64,000 nucleotides of DNA, from positions 1,178,001 to 1,242,000 of the forward strand of contig NZ_OESS01000001.1 in NCBI RefSeq assembly GCF_900240285.1, given 5' to 3'. This DNA is from Halobacillus sp. Marseille-P3879 (GTDB lineage: Bacteria; Bacillota; Bacilli; Bacillales; Halobacillaceae). Positions 27,795 through 53,912 of this stretch are shown here, in pieces. Position numbers and translations under genes: made by a program. The notes beneath the pieces were generated by a model, which saw only the letters and a program-made list of their open reading frames with translations, made no database searches and was not told the DNA's origin. How positions within the stretch are numbered: position 1 is the stretch's first letter; each line of letters starts with the position of its first letter.

Positions 27795-28838
27795 GTGAAA
27801 GCCCTCAATTTATATGGCATACAAGACATTAGATTTGAAGAAACAAAAGAACCAATTATCGAGAGTGGAACAGATGTCATTATTAAAGTGAAAGCGGTAG
27901 GGATATGTGGCTCTGATATCTCCCGGTATAAAAAGCTCGGCCCTTATATAGAAGGAATGACGTTTGGCCATGAATTTTCTGGTGAAGTAGTTGAAGTTGG
28001 TCCGGAGGTTTTTCATATTCATGCCGGTGACCGTGTAGCTGGATGTCCTACCTATTATTGCGGAGAATGTGAAAGCTGCCAAAAGGGGGAATTATCGCGC
28101 TGTGAACACCTTACGGTAATAGGAGCACGTCATCCAGGATCCTATGCAGAATATGTAAAACTCCCGGTAGAAAACATAATTTCTTTGCCTGATCATGTAG
28201 ATTTTGAAACAGCTTCCTTAATCGAACCTTCCTCCGTCGTAGCTCACGGCTTCTATCGAACCACTATGGAGCCGGGAGAGGAAGTAGCCGTTATGGGGTG
28301 CGGCAGTATTGGTTTACTTGCCATTCAATGGGCAAAAATCTTCGGAGCAAAGAAAGTTTATGCTATCGATATTGATGACACAAAACTTGCAGCAGCGAAA
28401 GAAGTAGGAGCAGAGGTGTTAATTAATTCACTGAATAAACCGGCTCATGAACAAGTTAGTGATCATACAAATGGTCGTGGTGTAGATCTCGCTGTTGAAT
28501 CAGCCGGGTCGCCGATAACATCCTCACAAATATTTGCTCTACCCAAAAAAGGTGGAGAGGTGGTGTTTATGGGGATTCCTTATGCTGACATTCAGATAGA
28601 ACGGTATTATTTTGAAAGAATCGTACGTAATGAATTGAGAGTTCTAGGTTCATGGAATGCGATTTCCTCACCTTTTCCCGGGAAAGAATGGGAAGCGAGT
28701 GTTCATTATATGAATACGGGTCAGATAAATGTAAAACCGATGATTTCCCATAGACTTAAATTGGAAGAAGGACCAGAAACCTTTGATCGATTGGTTAATA
28801 AAAAAGGACCGTATGTAAAAGTTCTTTTTATTCCTTAG
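27795..28838 (+). CDS. Galactitol-1-phosphate 5-dehydrogenase-like zinc dehydrogenase
   Basis: A 347-residue zinc MDR dehydrogenase starting at GTG 27795 with AAGGGGGAGAG upstream. Ligands appear in CGSDISRYK, GHEFSGEVVEVG and CGECESCQKGELSRC; the Rossmann motif is VMGCGSIGLLAIQWAK. It resembles GatD, the galactitol-1-phosphate dehydrogenase, more than the first dehydrogenase does (shorter, EPSSVVAHGFY). It ends the operon. Two dehydrogenases could handle two stereoisomers or two steps. Confidence 0.87.
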   Translation: MKALNLYGIQDIRFEETKEPIIESGTDVIIKVKAVGICGSDISRYKKLGPYIEGMTFGHEFSGEVVEVGPEVFHIHAGDRVAGCPTYYCGECESCQKGELSRCEHLTVIGARHPGSYAEYVKLPVENIISLPDHVDFETASLIEPSSVVAHGFYRTTMEPGEEVAVMGCGSIGLLAIQWAKIFGAKKVYAIDIDDTKLAAAKEVGAEVLINSLNKPAHEQVSDHTNGRGVDLAVESAGSPITSSQIFALPKKGGEVVFMGIPYADIQIERYYFERIVRNELRVLGSWNAISSPFPGKEWEASVHYMNTGQINVKPMISHRLKLEEGPETFDRLVNKKGPYVKVLFIP

Positions 28839-37090: not shown

Positions 37091-37276
37091 TTATTCAACA
37101 GCTGTTTGTCTGCCAATGCCGCCATCTCCAGGATCGTTTGCCTGCAGTTCGACTATATCTCCTAAGCTGCCATCATCCAATGCGTGTTTTGAGGAGAGGA
37201 ATTCCCCCTGTGAAAGAGAAATGGTTAAACAGGCAATAAGTAAAAAATCTCTGCCCCATCTTTTCATATATTTCAC
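37091..37276 (-). CDS. Pre-pro-peptide of the AimR-like receptor (AimP/Phr-like)
   Basis: A 61-residue protein with a basic start (MKYMKRWGRD), a hydrophobic export segment (about 11-24, FLLIACLTISLS) and a short polar, glycine-rich C-terminus (LQANDPGDGGIGRQTAVE). ATG 37276 has a perfect AGGAGGTG 6 bases upstream, and that RBS overlaps the stop codon of the receptor gene before it, so the two are translationally coupled as are receptor-peptide pairs of the RRNPP class. The mature signal is probably cut from the last 15-18 residues; DPGDGG at 48-53 looks a likely core because short peptides with D-P and G-G occur in arbitrium-type systems (from memory). No phosphatase or protease site was tested. 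Confidence 0.7.
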   Translation of the reverse strand: MKYMKRWGRDFLLIACLTISLSQGEFLSSKHALDDGSLGDIVELQANDPGDGGIGRQTAVE

Positions 37277-37279
37277 CTC

Positions 37280-38308
37280 CTACATAAATGATTTCAGTCT
37301 ATTTAAGTAGAATTTGGGAAGCATAGCAAAAAATAAATCGCCATATTCACTTCGAAATCGTTCGTGCGCGTGATCGAGCATTGGAGAATTACCAGTAGCA
37401 AGACCTAAGTAGCTTTCTTGAAAAGGAGTTAATGATTGTAAGGAAGATAAAATTTCAACTGCTCTGTCCTTTTTGTTCTCGGCAAGGGCTATATGGGCTG
37501 TTTCCACAACATCGGGGGTGGAAACGTTAAGCGTTCGTCTATGATAAGCCGCGATAAAAGGGATCGTATTATGCTTTATGCTATTTATTTCGGAGGGGAA
37601 GTCATGTTGTAAAGCAATTTGAAGTGCTTGTTTCGCATGATGCATAGAAAATGGAAAACTTTCAAATACATAAGACTGTGATAAATTATGGTGCATAGAA
37701 CATAATTTTCTCGGAACAAGTACTTTACTGATGTATTTAAAAGCGTATTTTCTAGCTAAAATAAGATTATTCGTCTTCCAGTAATGTTGGAAAGATAATT
37801 CATCAAACCTTAAACTCATGTAATAATAAAATAAAGGTTCTCTCACTTTATGGAGTGTTATGTAACAGGCTTCGGTATACTTATCTAAAACCGTATACCT
37901 CTTTAAATCATAATACATATAAATAAGTAGAAAAAGATGAAAACATTTGAGGGAAGGATGTTCAAACGAGAGAGATTCAAAGGCTTTGAGATCGTCCATA
38001 CTCATTGGCTCTCTTCCTATTTTTAACAAGGTCTCGTACAAGTAAACAGCTTCTAAATGTTGACAGGATGATTGTAGAAGTGTAGTCAGCTCATCTAAAT
38101 AATCGTTCATGTACAAAAATTCGTAACAAGCTAATTGATCATCGATAGAAGTAAATGAGGAGTTAAGGCAGAAGTCTTTAGTAAGCTCAGCAGCAGGCTT
38201 ATTTGAGGTAGTTCGCAGGAAAGAATGGTAATGCTTGTACACTTTAGAGGAATGATGCATTTGCATTTTAATGAGTTGATCAGGTTCAATCAACATATGG
38301 CTGTTCAT
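37280..38308 (-). CDS. AimR-like peptide pheromone receptor 1 (no visible HTH)
   Basis: A 342-residue all-helical TPR-type protein. The block ELTKDFCLNSSFTSIDDQLA (from residue 41) aligns with the YELMKDYCLN region of phage phi3T AimR as I remember it, and the C-terminal segment (ETAHIALAENKKDRAVEILS then YLGLATG and FFAMLPKFYLNRL) matches the AimR end. AimR has about 68 residues, including a DNA-binding helix-turn-helix, before that first motif; here only 43 occur and no helix-turn-helix is visible. It might therefore bind RNA or a protein instead of DNA. It has its own promoter and is followed with overlap by the peptide gene. A 346-residue paralogue lies upstream. Confidence 0.7.
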   Translation of the reverse strand: MNSHMLIEPDQLIKMQMHHSSKVYKHYHSFLRTTSNKPAAELTKDFCLNSSFTSIDDQLACYEFLYMNDYLDELTTLLQSSCQHLEAVYLYETLLKIGREPMSMDDLKAFESLSFEHPSLKCFHLFLLIYMYYDLKRYTVLDKYTEACYITLHKVREPLFYYYMSLRFDELSFQHYWKTNNLILARKYAFKYISKVLVPRKLCSMHHNLSQSYVFESFPFSMHHAKQALQIALQHDFPSEINSIKHNTIPFIAAYHRRTLNVSTPDVVETAHIALAENKKDRAVEILSSLQSLTPFQESYLGLATGNSPMLDHAHERFRSEYGDLFFAMLPKFYLNRLKSFM

Positions 38309-38340
38309 AGTAACACCTCGACTTTCCTATATTTAACATA

Positions 38341-38368
38341 ATTATATACGTTATGCTAAAAAAGTAAA
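38341..38368 (-). promoter_or_regulatory. Candidate promoter of AimR-like receptor 1
   Basis: On the minus strand TTTACT (38363-38368) and TATAAT (38341-38346) are 16 bases apart and about 35 bases before the ATG with GAGGTG RBS. It lies after the repeat, so receptor 1 and its peptide can be expressed without read-through from receptor 2. Confidence 0.6.
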
Positions 38369-38429
38369 TATTTTTTTCAGAACTAACTTAATTATTGTAA
38401 ATTTACAGCTAGTTACTATATACAAGGGG

Positions 38430-38643
38430 TTTAGGACAAAATTGAATAAGCATAAAATAATCCGGACGATATTGTTGAAATCAGTTCGGATTATTTATAG
38501 ATTCTATTATCGCTCCGTCCAAACACTTCACTTTCCTGCGTGATCTTCGACTCGCGCTGTTTCCAGAGAGGTCTTAAGCATTAATCTGCGTTTGATTTTT
38601 ATTGTTCGTTTTTTACTATCACTGCATTGCTTATGTCTCATCC
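38430..38643 (-). repeat. MITE-like dispersed repeat, copy 3 (long form, inverted)
   Basis: Inverted relative to copies 1, 2 and 4. Read on the minus strand it starts GAGACATAAGCAATGCAGTG and ends at CAATTTTGTCC. It shares with copy 2 the blocks AGCGCGAGTC, CACGCAGGAAAG and GTTTGGACGGAGCGAT, and the hairpin AATAATCCGAACTGATT / AATATCGTCCGGATTATT. Its left end supplies the last codons and the TAA stop of AimR-like receptor 2, so it inserted into or at the 3-prime end of that gene. Confidence 0.8.
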
Positions 38644-39671
38644 TCCATATTTATAGTGATTCGATTCAAGTACTCTAAAGGAAGGCGTGCAAAGAAGAAA
38701 TCATTCAGTTCCCATTTAAAGCGGTAATGAGCACGTAGAAGCATGTCTTTATCCAGTCTTGCTGCACCTAAATATGTTTCCTGAAAAGGTGTTAGGTGGT
38801 CAAGGGTACAAAGGATTTCCATTGCGGCTGAATAGTTATTTTCCGCTATAGCTATGTGGGCAGACTCAGTGGGATCCGGGCTGGTAATGTTATCAGTGCG
38901 TCTGTGAAAAGCACATATAAAAGGGATAGTATGATTACGAATAGAAGTCATGGCCGCAGCCAGGTTATTGTTTTCAGCAATGGATAATGCTTTCTTCGCA
39001 TAATCATAAGAAGCTTCAAAGTCATCATATAAATGGCTTAAGGCTAAATGATGGTACATTTTACAAAGTTGAATGGGGGATATGACTTTATTTATAAACT
39101 TGTAAGCATATTTTCTCGCTAATATAGTACGGTTTGTCTTCCAATAATGGTGAAAAGAAACTTCATCAAATCGAAGCTTCATATAATAATGAAATAACGG
39201 TTCATTTACCTTATAAAGAGCTTGCTGACAAAGCTCTATATACTTCTCAAAACCTTCGTACTGTTTAAGGTCATAATAAGCATACACGATAATAAAATAG
39301 TGCAGGCATTGGATAGAGGGATGACGATAGGTAAGAGCTTCCAGCCAACGTAATTCCTCAAAGGTTAGAAGTCTGACCTTACGAGCTATAAGTACATGAT
39401 AAAGAGAGACAGCTTCATATGAATAGTGTGGAGAATGAACTAATGCTTTAAGTTCTTTATGATAATCGTTCATGTATAGAAATTCTAATCTTGCCAGTTG
39501 CTCTTCGATCGACAAAGGAGAGGAGCTTAGGCAATATTCTTGGGTCAATTGGGTTGCTTGTACCTTTGTATATAACTTAAGCAGCTTATGATACTTTTGA
39601 TAGACGCTGGATATTTCCTTCATCTGGATTTCCATGATTGGACTAGGCTCTATTAAGTTTTGACACCCCAT
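38631..39671 (-). CDS. AimR-like peptide pheromone receptor 2 (paralogue)
   Basis: A 346-residue paralogue of receptor 1, alike over its whole length, with QLTQEYCLSSSPLSIEEQLA at residue 41 and DFFFARLPLEYLNRI near the end. ATG 39671 has GGAGG 8 bases upstream (ATG 39692 lacks an RBS). TATAAT at 39704-39709 on the minus strand is a probable -10. Like receptor 1 it has no visible helix-turn-helix. Its last codons and stop come from the repeat, and I see no signal-peptide ORF after it, so it may have lost its cognate peptide or may share that of receptor 1. It lies just downstream of an M4 protease gene. Confidence 0.7.
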   Translation of the reverse strand: MGCQNLIEPSPIMEIQMKEISSVYQKYHKLLKLYTKVQATQLTQEYCLSSSPLSIEEQLARLEFLYMNDYHKELKALVHSPHYSYEAVSLYHVLIARKVRLLTFEELRWLEALTYRHPSIQCLHYFIIVYAYYDLKQYEGFEKYIELCQQALYKVNEPLFHYYMKLRFDEVSFHHYWKTNRTILARKYAYKFINKVISPIQLCKMYHHLALSHLYDDFEASYDYAKKALSIAENNNLAAAMTSIRNHTIPFICAFHRRTDNITSPDPTESAHIAIAENNYSAAMEILCTLDHLTPFQETYLGAARLDKDMLLRAHYRFKWELNDFFFARLPLEYLNRITINMEDET

Positions 39672-39775
39672 TTTATGGTCCTCCAACTTCATAGTTTTAT
39701 AATATTATATACTATTTATTTGGAAAATAAAGTGAAATGCTTAGATTTTGAAGCCTTTCTAAGTATAAAAGAGAA

Positions 39776-39800
39776 GGACGCCAGCAGTAAACTGACGTCC
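39776..39800 (-). terminator. Terminator of the M4 protease gene
   Basis: GGACGCCAG pairs with CTGACGTCC around a 7-base loop; on the minus strand it is followed by TTCTCTTTT. It lies 6 bases past the stop at 39807 and separates the protease from receptor 2. Confidence 0.8.
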
Positions 39801-51870: not shown

Positions 51871-53652
51871 TCATGACTCTGTTATTTCTAAAGGCATAAG
51901 TTCAAATGCATCTACATCAGCGATTCCTCTGTTCGTAATACGTATACTCGGGATAACGGGGAGGGCAATTAACGAAAAGGTCATAAATGGAGCGTTCATT
52001 TTGCACCCTAGCTTCTTCCATGCTTGTTCGAGTGATTCAACCTGCTCACCAACTTGTTCAAGCGGCTTGTCAGACATAAGCCCCGCAATTGGAAGAGGTA
52101 CTTCTGCTAATATTTTTCCATGATTAACAACTATCATTCCACCTCCGAGTTCAGCAATTTTGTTAGCTGCAATTGCCATATCCTCTTTGTTTACCCCCAT
52201 AACAAGAAGGTTATGGCTGTCGTGAGCTACAGTGGAAGCTACGGCACCGCTTTGAAGTTGAAACCCTTTTACAAAAGCATTAGATATTTGTCCGGAACGA
52301 TGGTGTCGATCGATACAGGCTAAGTGAATGATGTCTTCTTTAATATTCGATTGAATAATACTATTTCTAACGGTCAGTTCGGCTTTTGCTTTGGCTGTAC
52401 GAGCATTATTCTCTAACACCTCTATCACATTCACAGTAACTTTAGGCTGAGTAAGAGTCTTAGTGTGAAAATCTTCAGCTTTCAACTCTTTTTTTAAATG
52501 AACGGAATTTTTTGCTTCCGTTGGATACGTATAAACAGGAAAATTAACTTTATACATTCCCTGATCATAAATCATTTTTCCACCTACTAATACCGAAGAA
52601 GGCTTCATTTCTGCTAAGCTGTCGATAAACAATAAGTCAGCCCACTTACCGGGAGCTATACTTCCTAACGTGTCTTCACATTTAAAGTATTTTGCAGCAT
52701 TAATAGTGGCTAGCTGAAGGGCTGTTATAGGATCGACGCCTTCTTTAACGGCCTTTCTTATGACATAGTTAAGATGCCCCAGCTCAGTTAATGTTTGGGG
52801 ATACACATCATCAGTAACGAGAGAGAGGTTATCTGTCGGCACGTGATCTTTGGTTATAATAGGAGCCAGCTGCTCTACATCCTGCCAGGCTGACCCTTCC
52901 CTGATCATCACGTGCATGCCAAGCCTTAGTTTTTCCAATGCCTGCTCACGGGTTACGGTTTCATGGCAGGAAGTGACTCCGGAAGCGACGTAAGCCTGAA
53001 GCATTTTCGGATCATCGGCAGGAATGTGGCCGGTTACTGTTTTTCCTGCTTGAATCGTCGCTTCAATTTCCTGAGCCATTTTTTCATCTCCATGGACCAC
53101 TCCAGGAAAGTTCATTACTTCACCTAAACCTGTGACATTCTCCCACTCCAGTGCTTGCTCAACGTCTTTTGGCAAAAGTTCGGCTCCAGCATCTTCTAAC
53201 GTGTCCGTTGCTGGCACACATGAGGGGACGGTTGTAAATACACGTAATGGGAGTTTTTGACCTTCCTCATGCATCCAGCGTACTCCCTTAAGCCCGAATA
53301 CATTTGCAATTTCATGCGGATCCATAAAAATGGAAGTTGTTCCTTGCTTAAGGGCGGCTTTTGCGAATTCCGTTACACTTAGCATTGTACTTTCCACGTG
53401 CATATGGCCATCAATTAAACCGGGGGTGATAAACTTACCGCTGGCATCAATTACTTCTGTCTCTTTTCCGATAAGCTGCTGACAATCTCCAATATAAGCA
53501 ATTGCCCCTGAAGTGATTGCTATATCTTTATCCCTTATATGTTCTTTGGAATGTACATTTACTATTATACCGTTGGTAATAACAGTATCTGCTTTTCTTT
53601 TGCCTAAAGCAGTTGCAGCTAACTGAAGCCGTTGAGCACGAGTCATTTTCAT
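51871..53652 (-). CDS. ade: Adenine deaminase
   Basis: A 593-residue metal-dependent deaminase that turns adenine into hypoxanthine and ammonia. The amidohydrolase core has PGLIDGHMHVESTML (metal His), VTGHIPADD, and the C-terminal half has the YlaM/Ade-type domain with ASTVAHDSHNLLVMG. AAGGAG RBS. Expression is set by a leader with a purine riboswitch and terminator. The transporter gene follows in the same transcript. Length is normal for Bacillus Ade. Confidence 0.92.
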   Translation of the reverse strand: MKMTRAQRLQLAATALGKRKADTVITNGIIVNVHSKEHIRDKDIAITSGAIAYIGDCQQLIGKETEVIDASGKFITPGLIDGHMHVESTMLSVTEFAKAALKQGTTSIFMDPHEIANVFGLKGVRWMHEEGQKLPLRVFTTVPSCVPATDTLEDAGAELLPKDVEQALEWENVTGLGEVMNFPGVVHGDEKMAQEIEATIQAGKTVTGHIPADDPKMLQAYVASGVTSCHETVTREQALEKLRLGMHVMIREGSAWQDVEQLAPIITKDHVPTDNLSLVTDDVYPQTLTELGHLNYVIRKAVKEGVDPITALQLATINAAKYFKCEDTLGSIAPGKWADLLFIDSLAEMKPSSVLVGGKMIYDQGMYKVNFPVYTYPTEAKNSVHLKKELKAEDFHTKTLTQPKVTVNVIEVLENNARTAKAKAELTVRNSIIQSNIKEDIIHLACIDRHHRSGQISNAFVKGFQLQSGAVASTVAHDSHNLLVMGVNKEDMAIAANKIAELGGGMIVVNHGKILAEVPLPIAGLMSDKPLEQVGEQVESLEQAWKKLGCKMNAPFMTFSLIALPVIPSIRITNRGIADVDAFELMPLEITES

Positions 53653-53704: not shown

Positions 53705-53744
53705 ACATAATCTCCCAGGGGTAAACTTCCCCTTATTATGAGAA

Positions 53745-53814
53745 TTATGTAGTCCAGCAATTTACGGTTGCTTGGGTAGAAACACCTGAGCCCTATTCTC
53801 AAGCCTATACATAA
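53745..53814 (-). promoter_or_regulatory. Purine riboswitch aptamer, guanine class
   Basis: On the minus strand the 70-base element has P1 (TTATGTA/TACATAA), P2 CTTGAG-AATAGGG-CTCAGG, the J2/3 core TGTTTCTACC, P3 with loop ACCGTAAAT, and J3/1 GGACTA. This is the standard purine aptamer. The specificity base in J3/1 is C (GACTA rather than GATTA), so it should bind guanine or hypoxanthine rather than adenine. Together with the downstream terminator it makes an OFF switch for ade and the transporter. Confidence 0.88.
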
Positions 53815-53912
53815 GCAGCTCTTAATGTGATTATTATTCGATAGTATAGAAGAAACAAAATGAATCGTCAATTCTTATTGACAATGAATAAAACAATAGG
53901 CAGCATATTAAT

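Follow-up and report, generated by a model that had tools for sequence, protein, structure and literature searches.

AimR-Type Receptors Lacking the Helix-Turn-Helix, and a Candidate Octapeptide Pheromone, in a Halobacillus Chromosome

Introduction

The phage arbitrium receptor AimR, as known from SPbeta and phi3T, contains nine tetratricopeptide repeat (TPR)-like repeats and an N-terminal helix-turn-helix (HTH), which in the SPbeta protein comprises residues 1-59 with N30, N32, and Y35 as the DNA-reading residues (PMC6458997; this and all other papers are cited for the available parts of their text). AimR and NprR carry an HTH, and Rap is stated to be the only RRNPPA group without one (PMC9765709), while the available part of PMC12700828 reports HTH loss for Rap and the small subfamily 17 and not for an AimR relative. 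All described Alo receptors also have an HTH (PMC7425212). Here we describe two AimR-like receptor genes, R1 and R2, together with a gene for a small peptide precursor, in a 64,000-nucleotide stretch of the Halobacillus sp. Marseille-P3879 chromosome (contig NZ_OESS01000001.1, positions 1,178,001 to 1,242,000, hereafter the window), and we propose, as the better than even but not assured reading, that they belong to a peptide quorum-sensing module of the host, one that arose from the AimR branch within the RRNPPA receptors and includes peptide export, peptide uptake, and an output through a protein partner.

Several elements of such a system have been described before. Chromosomal AimR genes are already known, mostly without a propeptide, and have been taken as eavesdroppers, and repeated pheromones are known in AimR precursors (PMC9765709). 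The chromosomal systems of Alkalihalobacilli (subfamily 21) fall within AimR in a sequence tree, and a DPG motif is common to AimR and to the peptides of subfamily 08 from some Paenibacillaceae (PMC12700828). In the parts of the open literature that were searched, neither AimR relatives without an HTH nor a DPGDxGxG peptide were found to be described; Halobacillus combined with AimR returned no paper, and DPGDPG returned only one which, by its title, concerns a fish vaccine.

Receptor Homology and the N-Terminus

The genes in question and the site that couples two of them are the following.

38631..39671, minus strand: R2, AimR-like receptor of 346 residues without an HTH; Pfam and NCBIfam AimR matches, start set by GGAGG before the ATG at 39671
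37280..38308, minus strand: R1, AimR-like receptor of 342 residues with an ATG start and without an HTH; AimR matches, coupled to the peptide gene
37091..37267, minus strand: putative pheromone precursor gene of 58 residues; signal-like N-terminus by hydrophobicity only, with similar precursors 3' of the receptors of relatives
37274..37281, minus strand: AGGAGGTG, ribosome-binding site serving the peptide gene; agrees with the consensus used over 9 bases and overlaps the R1 stop

An earlier sequence-only reading of this stretch had described two paralogous AimR-like receptors of 342 and 346 residues with KDFCLN and QEYCLS motifs at a shared residue 44, no visible HTH, and a small precursor gene whose ribosome-binding site overlaps the stop of the first receptor, and all of this stands. 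R1 and R2 share 49% identity across 338 ungapped residues (E 6e-119), residue 44 is K in R1 and Q in R2, and the R1 stop TAG at 37282..37280 is overlapped by AGGAGGTG at 37281..37274. The mechanically called open reading frame (ORF) of R2 starts seven codons further out, at 39692. Pfam PF22871 (AimR) matches R1 with 138 and R2 with 144 bits (cut-off 26.7), and NCBIfam NF038310 (lysogeny_AimR) matches them with 110 and 119 bits (cut-off 70), its alignment beginning at profile position 56 for R1 and 40 for R2. The profile-profile comparison by hhalign pairs R2 31-340 with AimR 55-374 at a probability of 97.8 (E 1.2e-12), phmmer aligns R1 residue 17 to AimR chain residue 38, and a profile of the family searched against the PDB at E 0.01 returned five distinct sequences, all of them arbitrium/AimR receptors, the longest of these matches beginning at chain residue 48. 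By these comparisons R1 and R2 are homologs of AimR over the TPR part. The Rap N-terminal domain RapH_N (PF18801) is not among the Pfam matches of R1 and R2 up to E 1, which consist of AimR and weak matches below their cut-offs, and the strain's 4.17-Mb genome holds exactly two PF22871 matches, R1 and R2, with no third AimR-type gene.

The alignments to AimR start only at about AimR residue 38-55, and R1 and R2 have roughly 16-30 residues with an EP(S/D) motif where AimR has 37-54, such that AimR N30, N32, and Y35 have no aligned counterpart. Across the order (Bacillales), 162 AimR-like ORFs were labeled by their N-terminus, giving 111 without and 48 with an HTH and 3 unresolved. N-terminal length, counted as the residues before the conserved E of EFLYMND and dependent on the start chosen by ribosome-binding site, is, among the matches listed, 62 in most sequences of the window's family (Halobacillaceae), fewer than 62 or up to 73 in the other HTH-less sequences, and 78-102 in those labeled with an HTH. 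A profile of the AimR HTH N-terminus built without the sequences under test recovered 42 of the 48 held-out HTH sequences and none of the 63 sequences of the clade that contains the window's receptors. It also matched four sequences not labeled HTH, all outside that clade; L095, L168, and L174 were thereby exposed as carrying the HTH-less label through start choice only and rejected as such, and the unresolved L172, outside the clade as well, was likewise matched. With the HTH profile made from all sequences there was no match at E 0.01 in the N-termini of the clade or in the six frames of the 600 nucleotides upstream. With too few N-terminal residues, no match to the HTH profile, and no HTH ORF upstream, R1 and R2 thus lack an N-terminal HTH.

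Without this domain, the known DNA output of AimR is unavailable to R1 and R2. The receptors might still act on DNA by way of a partner HTH protein or through TPR-DNA contacts, given that the TPR domain of SPbeta AimR touches the backbone of the spacer DNA, but these contacts are described as non-specific (PMC6458997), the three recognition residues are the very ones without an aligned counterpart, and no HTH ORF lies just upstream, so that we regard an output at the level of DNA as unlikely.

Distribution and Descent of the Receptors

The tree of the TPR part was calculated by a quick method from 109 sequences after thinning. One side of a branch with a Shimodaira-Hasegawa-like approximate likelihood ratio test (SH-aLRT) support of 100 contains the 63 sequences mentioned above, of which 61 are without an HTH, 2 are unresolved, and none is HTH-labeled; SPbeta and phi3T fall outside. 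This clade spans Halobacillus, Thalassobacillus, Aquibacillus, Sediminibacillus, and others, and the sequences of the window's family form a 31-member subclade within it (support 100). Because AimR, NprR, and the Alo receptors carry an HTH, a single loss would be the simplest reading of this tree, taken as unrooted.

A PF22871 match is present in 40 of the 44 genomes of the family and an HTH-less receptor in 39, with 52 full-length copies overall; the remaining genome, G001, from another genus, has only an HTH-bearing AimR copy, located in a prophage-like region. The receptor loci fall into four recurrent settings and some single ones, a pattern that favors vertical descent. Ten close pairs of relatives have ratios of nonsynonymous to synonymous substitution rates (dN/dS) of 0.06-0.12, and the receptors in these relatives are under purifying selection; between the window genes and their counterparts in loci L056 and L072, dS is saturated and the ratio of the corresponding proportions of differences (pN/pS) is 0.20-0.27. 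The receptors could instead be disappearing leftovers of prophage AimR genes that were truncated, a reading for which the copy in G003 that is broken by stops and the decayed first peptide copy of the window can be cited. However, the retention of a full-length HTH-less copy in 39 of 44 genomes, the similar N-termini of these copies, and the low dN/dS values have already largely refuted this explanation, and we give it next to no weight.

The Peptide Precursor and Its Octapeptide

Within the 58-residue precursor of the window the following parts can be distinguished.

37112..37135, minus strand: likely mature octapeptide DPGDGGIG, residues 45-52; sole pattern match in the strain's genome, kept in relatives
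37157..37177, minus strand: decayed first octapeptide copy DDGSLGD; comparison by eye with L056 (RDPGDGGIGSIVELLSNDPGDGGIG) and L072
37094..37111, minus strand: C-terminal tail RQTAVE 3' of the octapeptide; sequence and precursor comparison

The precursors found 3' of the receptors of relatives have a hydrophobic N-terminus followed by one to four copies of DPGDxGxG (four of DPGDPGMG in L075), the prevailing form being DPGDxG[IMV]G, of which DPGDGGIG is the window version. Linkage was assessed on ORFs within 400 nucleotides of a receptor using the loose motif DP[GI][DETNR]xG[IMVGYL], which was defined only after the peptides had been inspected and which follows 31 of the 52 receptors compared with 0 of 613 control gene ends; plain DPG gives 29 of 52 versus 0 of 613, and when every small ORF whose start is signal-like is accepted, the counts are 34 of 52 versus 94 of 613. 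At the DNA level the strict pattern DPGDxG[I/M/V]G occurs at 53 places, distributed over 31 of the 44 genomes of the family (the reversed pattern at none), and in the strain's own genome just once, inside the 58-residue gene. Of these 53 places, 47 are no more than about 2 kb from a receptor, which in one case is broken. All 31 pattern-bearing genomes have an HTH-less receptor and the five genomes without an HTH-less receptor have no match. Five more genomes have looser adjacent variants, namely DPGDGGYW, DPIDGGYW, or DPGEPGIG.

The motif-fitting copies are identical to one another in 12 of the 14 multi-copy precursors (mean 3.3 and maximum 9 in 5000 shufflings), a count that leaves out one further variant copy in L050. 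The octapeptide forms the very C-terminus in 22 of 34 precursors and is followed by a tail in the other 12, including that of the window, where it is internal and precedes the six-residue tail RQTAVE; the spacer IVEL after the decayed copy is common to L056. Of the sequence-only reading, then, the receptor-linked peptide gene is retained and is conserved in relatives, but the likely mature peptide is corrected to the internal octapeptide at residues 45-52. From this pattern of conservation the octapeptide DPGDGGIG is the likely pheromone. A longer candidate form of the window peptide is DPGDGGIGRQTAVE.

How a receptor such as R2, which has no peptide gene next to it, might obtain its signal is indicated by three genomes, each with one intact receptor. 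In G003 the receptor that adjoins the peptide is broken by stops and the intact one is elsewhere, in G023 the peptide is found in a usual setting minus the receptor, which is again elsewhere, and in G034 the peptide stands alone at a different place from the receptor. The retention of the peptide apart from an intact receptor implies that it is kept for a distant one, and this is the best evidence that receptors without a neighboring peptide gene, including R2, probably listen in trans to the same signal.

Other AimR-like loci of the order show further arrangements. The precursors beside the receptors in L147 and L086 contain four copies of DPVEPPIK (with a related set in L151) and three of YDVDFRVR, respectively. 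L164 has seven and L166 five HTH-bearing AimR-like genes in a row, mostly with GTG starts, and the only candidate precursor that the peptide scan gave for the two loci lies in L164. L154 and L155 each have four receptors labeled HTH-less in a row, for which the peptide scan found no peptide gene.

The Peptide Pocket

Twenty-eight peptide-touching residues of SPbeta AimR were listed from PMC6458997 and 27 could be mapped onto the 52 receptors. These columns have a conservation of 0.76 compared with 0.60 for all columns, a value reached by 14 of 20000 random sets, although conservation in the groove may have further causes. For SPbeta AimR with its peptide a thermal shift of about 10 degrees is reported (PMC6458997). 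In AimR, E300 binds the amine of the peptide and R228 holds its carboxylate (PMC6458997); E300 corresponds to E269 and D360 to D324, each in 52 of 52 receptors, and F362 is also kept. AimR N206 is replaced by K178 in all 52, which would suggest a pocket suited to an acidic peptide. Across the order, and uncorrected for kinship, 40 of the 49 receptors whose peptides are DP-type carry K or R at position 206, and all 5 whose peptides are RGA-type carry N or S.

Host Context and Other Features of the Window

Eight flanking genes were scanned, encoding an amylase, a class-V aminotransferase, NadB/C/A-type enzymes, an M4 protease, a catalase, and a FUSC-type membrane protein, and all are host genes. 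The PHROGs search at E 1e-10 gave only two matches, one for the aminotransferase and one for the flavin adenine dinucleotide (FAD) enzyme, and both to entries whose function is unknown. No relative was found in viral contigs (query A1) or in phage records (R2 only), and a plasmid search with R2 gave one weak match. The closest named relatives belong to Halobacillus. The earlier view that these are non-phage receptors with no phage genes near them is borne out by these scans.

A host receptor without an HTH could nevertheless serve as a decoy or eavesdropper on phages, soaking up arbitrium peptide or blocking phage AimR through mixed dimers. Eavesdropping by chromosomal AimR proteins has been proposed (PMC9765709), and G001 contains, at 8979-10112 of L038, an HTH-bearing AimR with a precursor ending in EDPGRGGGGG in its prophage-like region, which also holds genes for a DNA polymerase, a primase, and a helicase, and whose signal resembles that of the host. 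The host module, however, has peptide genes of its own, which accompany the receptor across much of the family, it has no relative in the viral and phage searches, the strain's genome has no third AimR-type match, and several octapeptide copies per precursor favor sending over listening alone. A decoy role is hence improbable.

Two further elements were predicted around the receptor genes.

38341..38368, minus strand: promoter-like site TTTACT-16-TATAAT before R1; 10/12 match, weak, with 15 sites in the region against 10.9 expected
39776..39800, minus strand: terminator-like hairpin between the M4 protease gene and R2; 1 in the region against 1.0 expected by chance

NprR is tied to a protease, and the M4 protease gene is the immediate upstream neighbor of R2 in the same orientation, such that an NprR-like control of this neutral protease might be considered. 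We think this very unlikely, as among the receptor loci of the family only those of the window and L072 have the protease right beside the receptors, and the terminator-like hairpin separates it from R2. Between R2 and R1 an inverted repeat, AATAATCCGGAC ... GTTCGGATTATT, was seen by eye at 38456-38495; it could be the R2 terminator and is absent from the output of the terminator scan.

Elsewhere in the window, the Listeria small RNA family rli30 has a match at 28044-28159 on the minus strand (46.9 bits, gathering score 41), antisense to a plus-strand ORF at 27795..28838 that is dehydrogenase-like by eye. A purine riboswitch at 53730-53832 on the minus strand (70 bits) lies just upstream of a 593-residue ORF, 53652..51871, which we take to resemble adenine deaminase.

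Proposed Mechanism and Output

RRNPPA receptors are TPR proteins linked to a peptide that is secreted, re-imported, and bound by them. In the quorum-sensing module that we propose, the precursor would be exported by Sec and cut outside the cell to the octapeptide DPGDGGIG, which would then re-enter the cell, by analogy through the oligopeptide permease, and occupy the TPR groove of R1 and, probably, that of R2. The peptide-driven closing movement of AimR could not be read out through a DNA recognition helix of the receptor's own, and a partner protein, bound or released as in Rap, is by that analogy the most likely output. The evidence gathered here includes nothing in favor of RNA as the output, and the anti-phage defense models gave no match. 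PF18801 matches, representing Rap/NprR-type genes, are present in 30 of the 44 family genomes, that of the strain's own genome being below the cut-off. A link to sporulation was tried and rejected: the three family genomes below the Spo0A cut-off all lack a receptor and 40 of the 41 above it have a PF22871 match, with the receptor-less genomes all of one genus, and order-wide the test has no power, as 391 of 397 genomes have Spo0A.

A number of observations, together with the choice of the linkage motif after inspection, weigh against the proposed module. No gene recurs in all receptor settings as a possible partner when the neighborhoods are read by eye. No motif peptide is found within 400 nucleotides of 21 of the 52 receptors, including R2, and 3 of the 39 receptor genomes (G008, G015, G022) have no peptide by the searches run. 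The unlinked matches in G027, G029, and G030 make doubtful precursors, as they fall in ORFs that have no convincing signal sequence or at places with no ORF of at least 38 residues. In the pocket, the R228 position is R in only 32 of 52 receptors (R in R1, I in R2), the N202 position is mostly Q, H, Y, or N, T236 and N239 are mostly not kept, and R1 has Q at a contact where 51 of 52 have L. R2 by itself, searched against the PDB by phmmer, finds no AimR and only weak CRASP-2 matches (E 0.16-0.21). With one octapeptide copy decayed and the other followed by a six-residue tail, the peptide of the window strain could be weakening.

Comparison with Known Systems

Taken more broadly, and held more tentatively than the module itself, with the chances slightly on the other side, is the idea that a branch of AimR lost its HTH once and became a host family acting by protein contact, in parallel with Rap, with a strongly conserved, often multi-copy DPGDxGxG pheromone shared in trans. 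Signals might also pass between this family and AimR prophages with an HTH that reside in its hosts. If true, relatives of the phage arbitrium receptor exist in hosts and signal by other means, in the form of an HTH-less branch that is near-core in a salt-loving bacterial family and has a readable peptide code. R1 and DPGDGGIG offer a receptor and a peptide that can be tested together at once, and for genes of the R1 and R2 type the database label "lysis-lysogeny pheromone receptor" would be misleading.

The locus resembles AimR of SPbeta and phi3T in the homology of the TPR part, in the order of receptor gene then small precursor gene, and in the retention of E300, D360, and F362, an aimP-type precursor being directly downstream of R1 but not of R2. 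In phages AimR governs aimX and the decision between lysis and lysogeny. Unlike AimR, the HTH-less receptors are in a host genome rather than in a phage or mobile element, they have K instead of N at position 206, and the candidate signal is an octapeptide, DPGDxGxG, often in several copies per precursor, compared with a hexapeptide ending in RGA in SPbeta-type records. AloR-AloP of Paenibacillus and the RRNPP subfamilies 08 and 21 are likewise host systems (PMC7425212, PMC12700828, PMC10075063), and subfamily 21 may overlap with the HTH-less clade, but the Alo receptors differ in having an HTH throughout. Rap is similar as an RRNPPA receptor without an HTH that has a linked secreted peptide (with export predicted here) and several paralogs, some without a peptide gene (PMC9765709), and is distinct from R1 and R2 in its RapH_N domain, which was not found in them.

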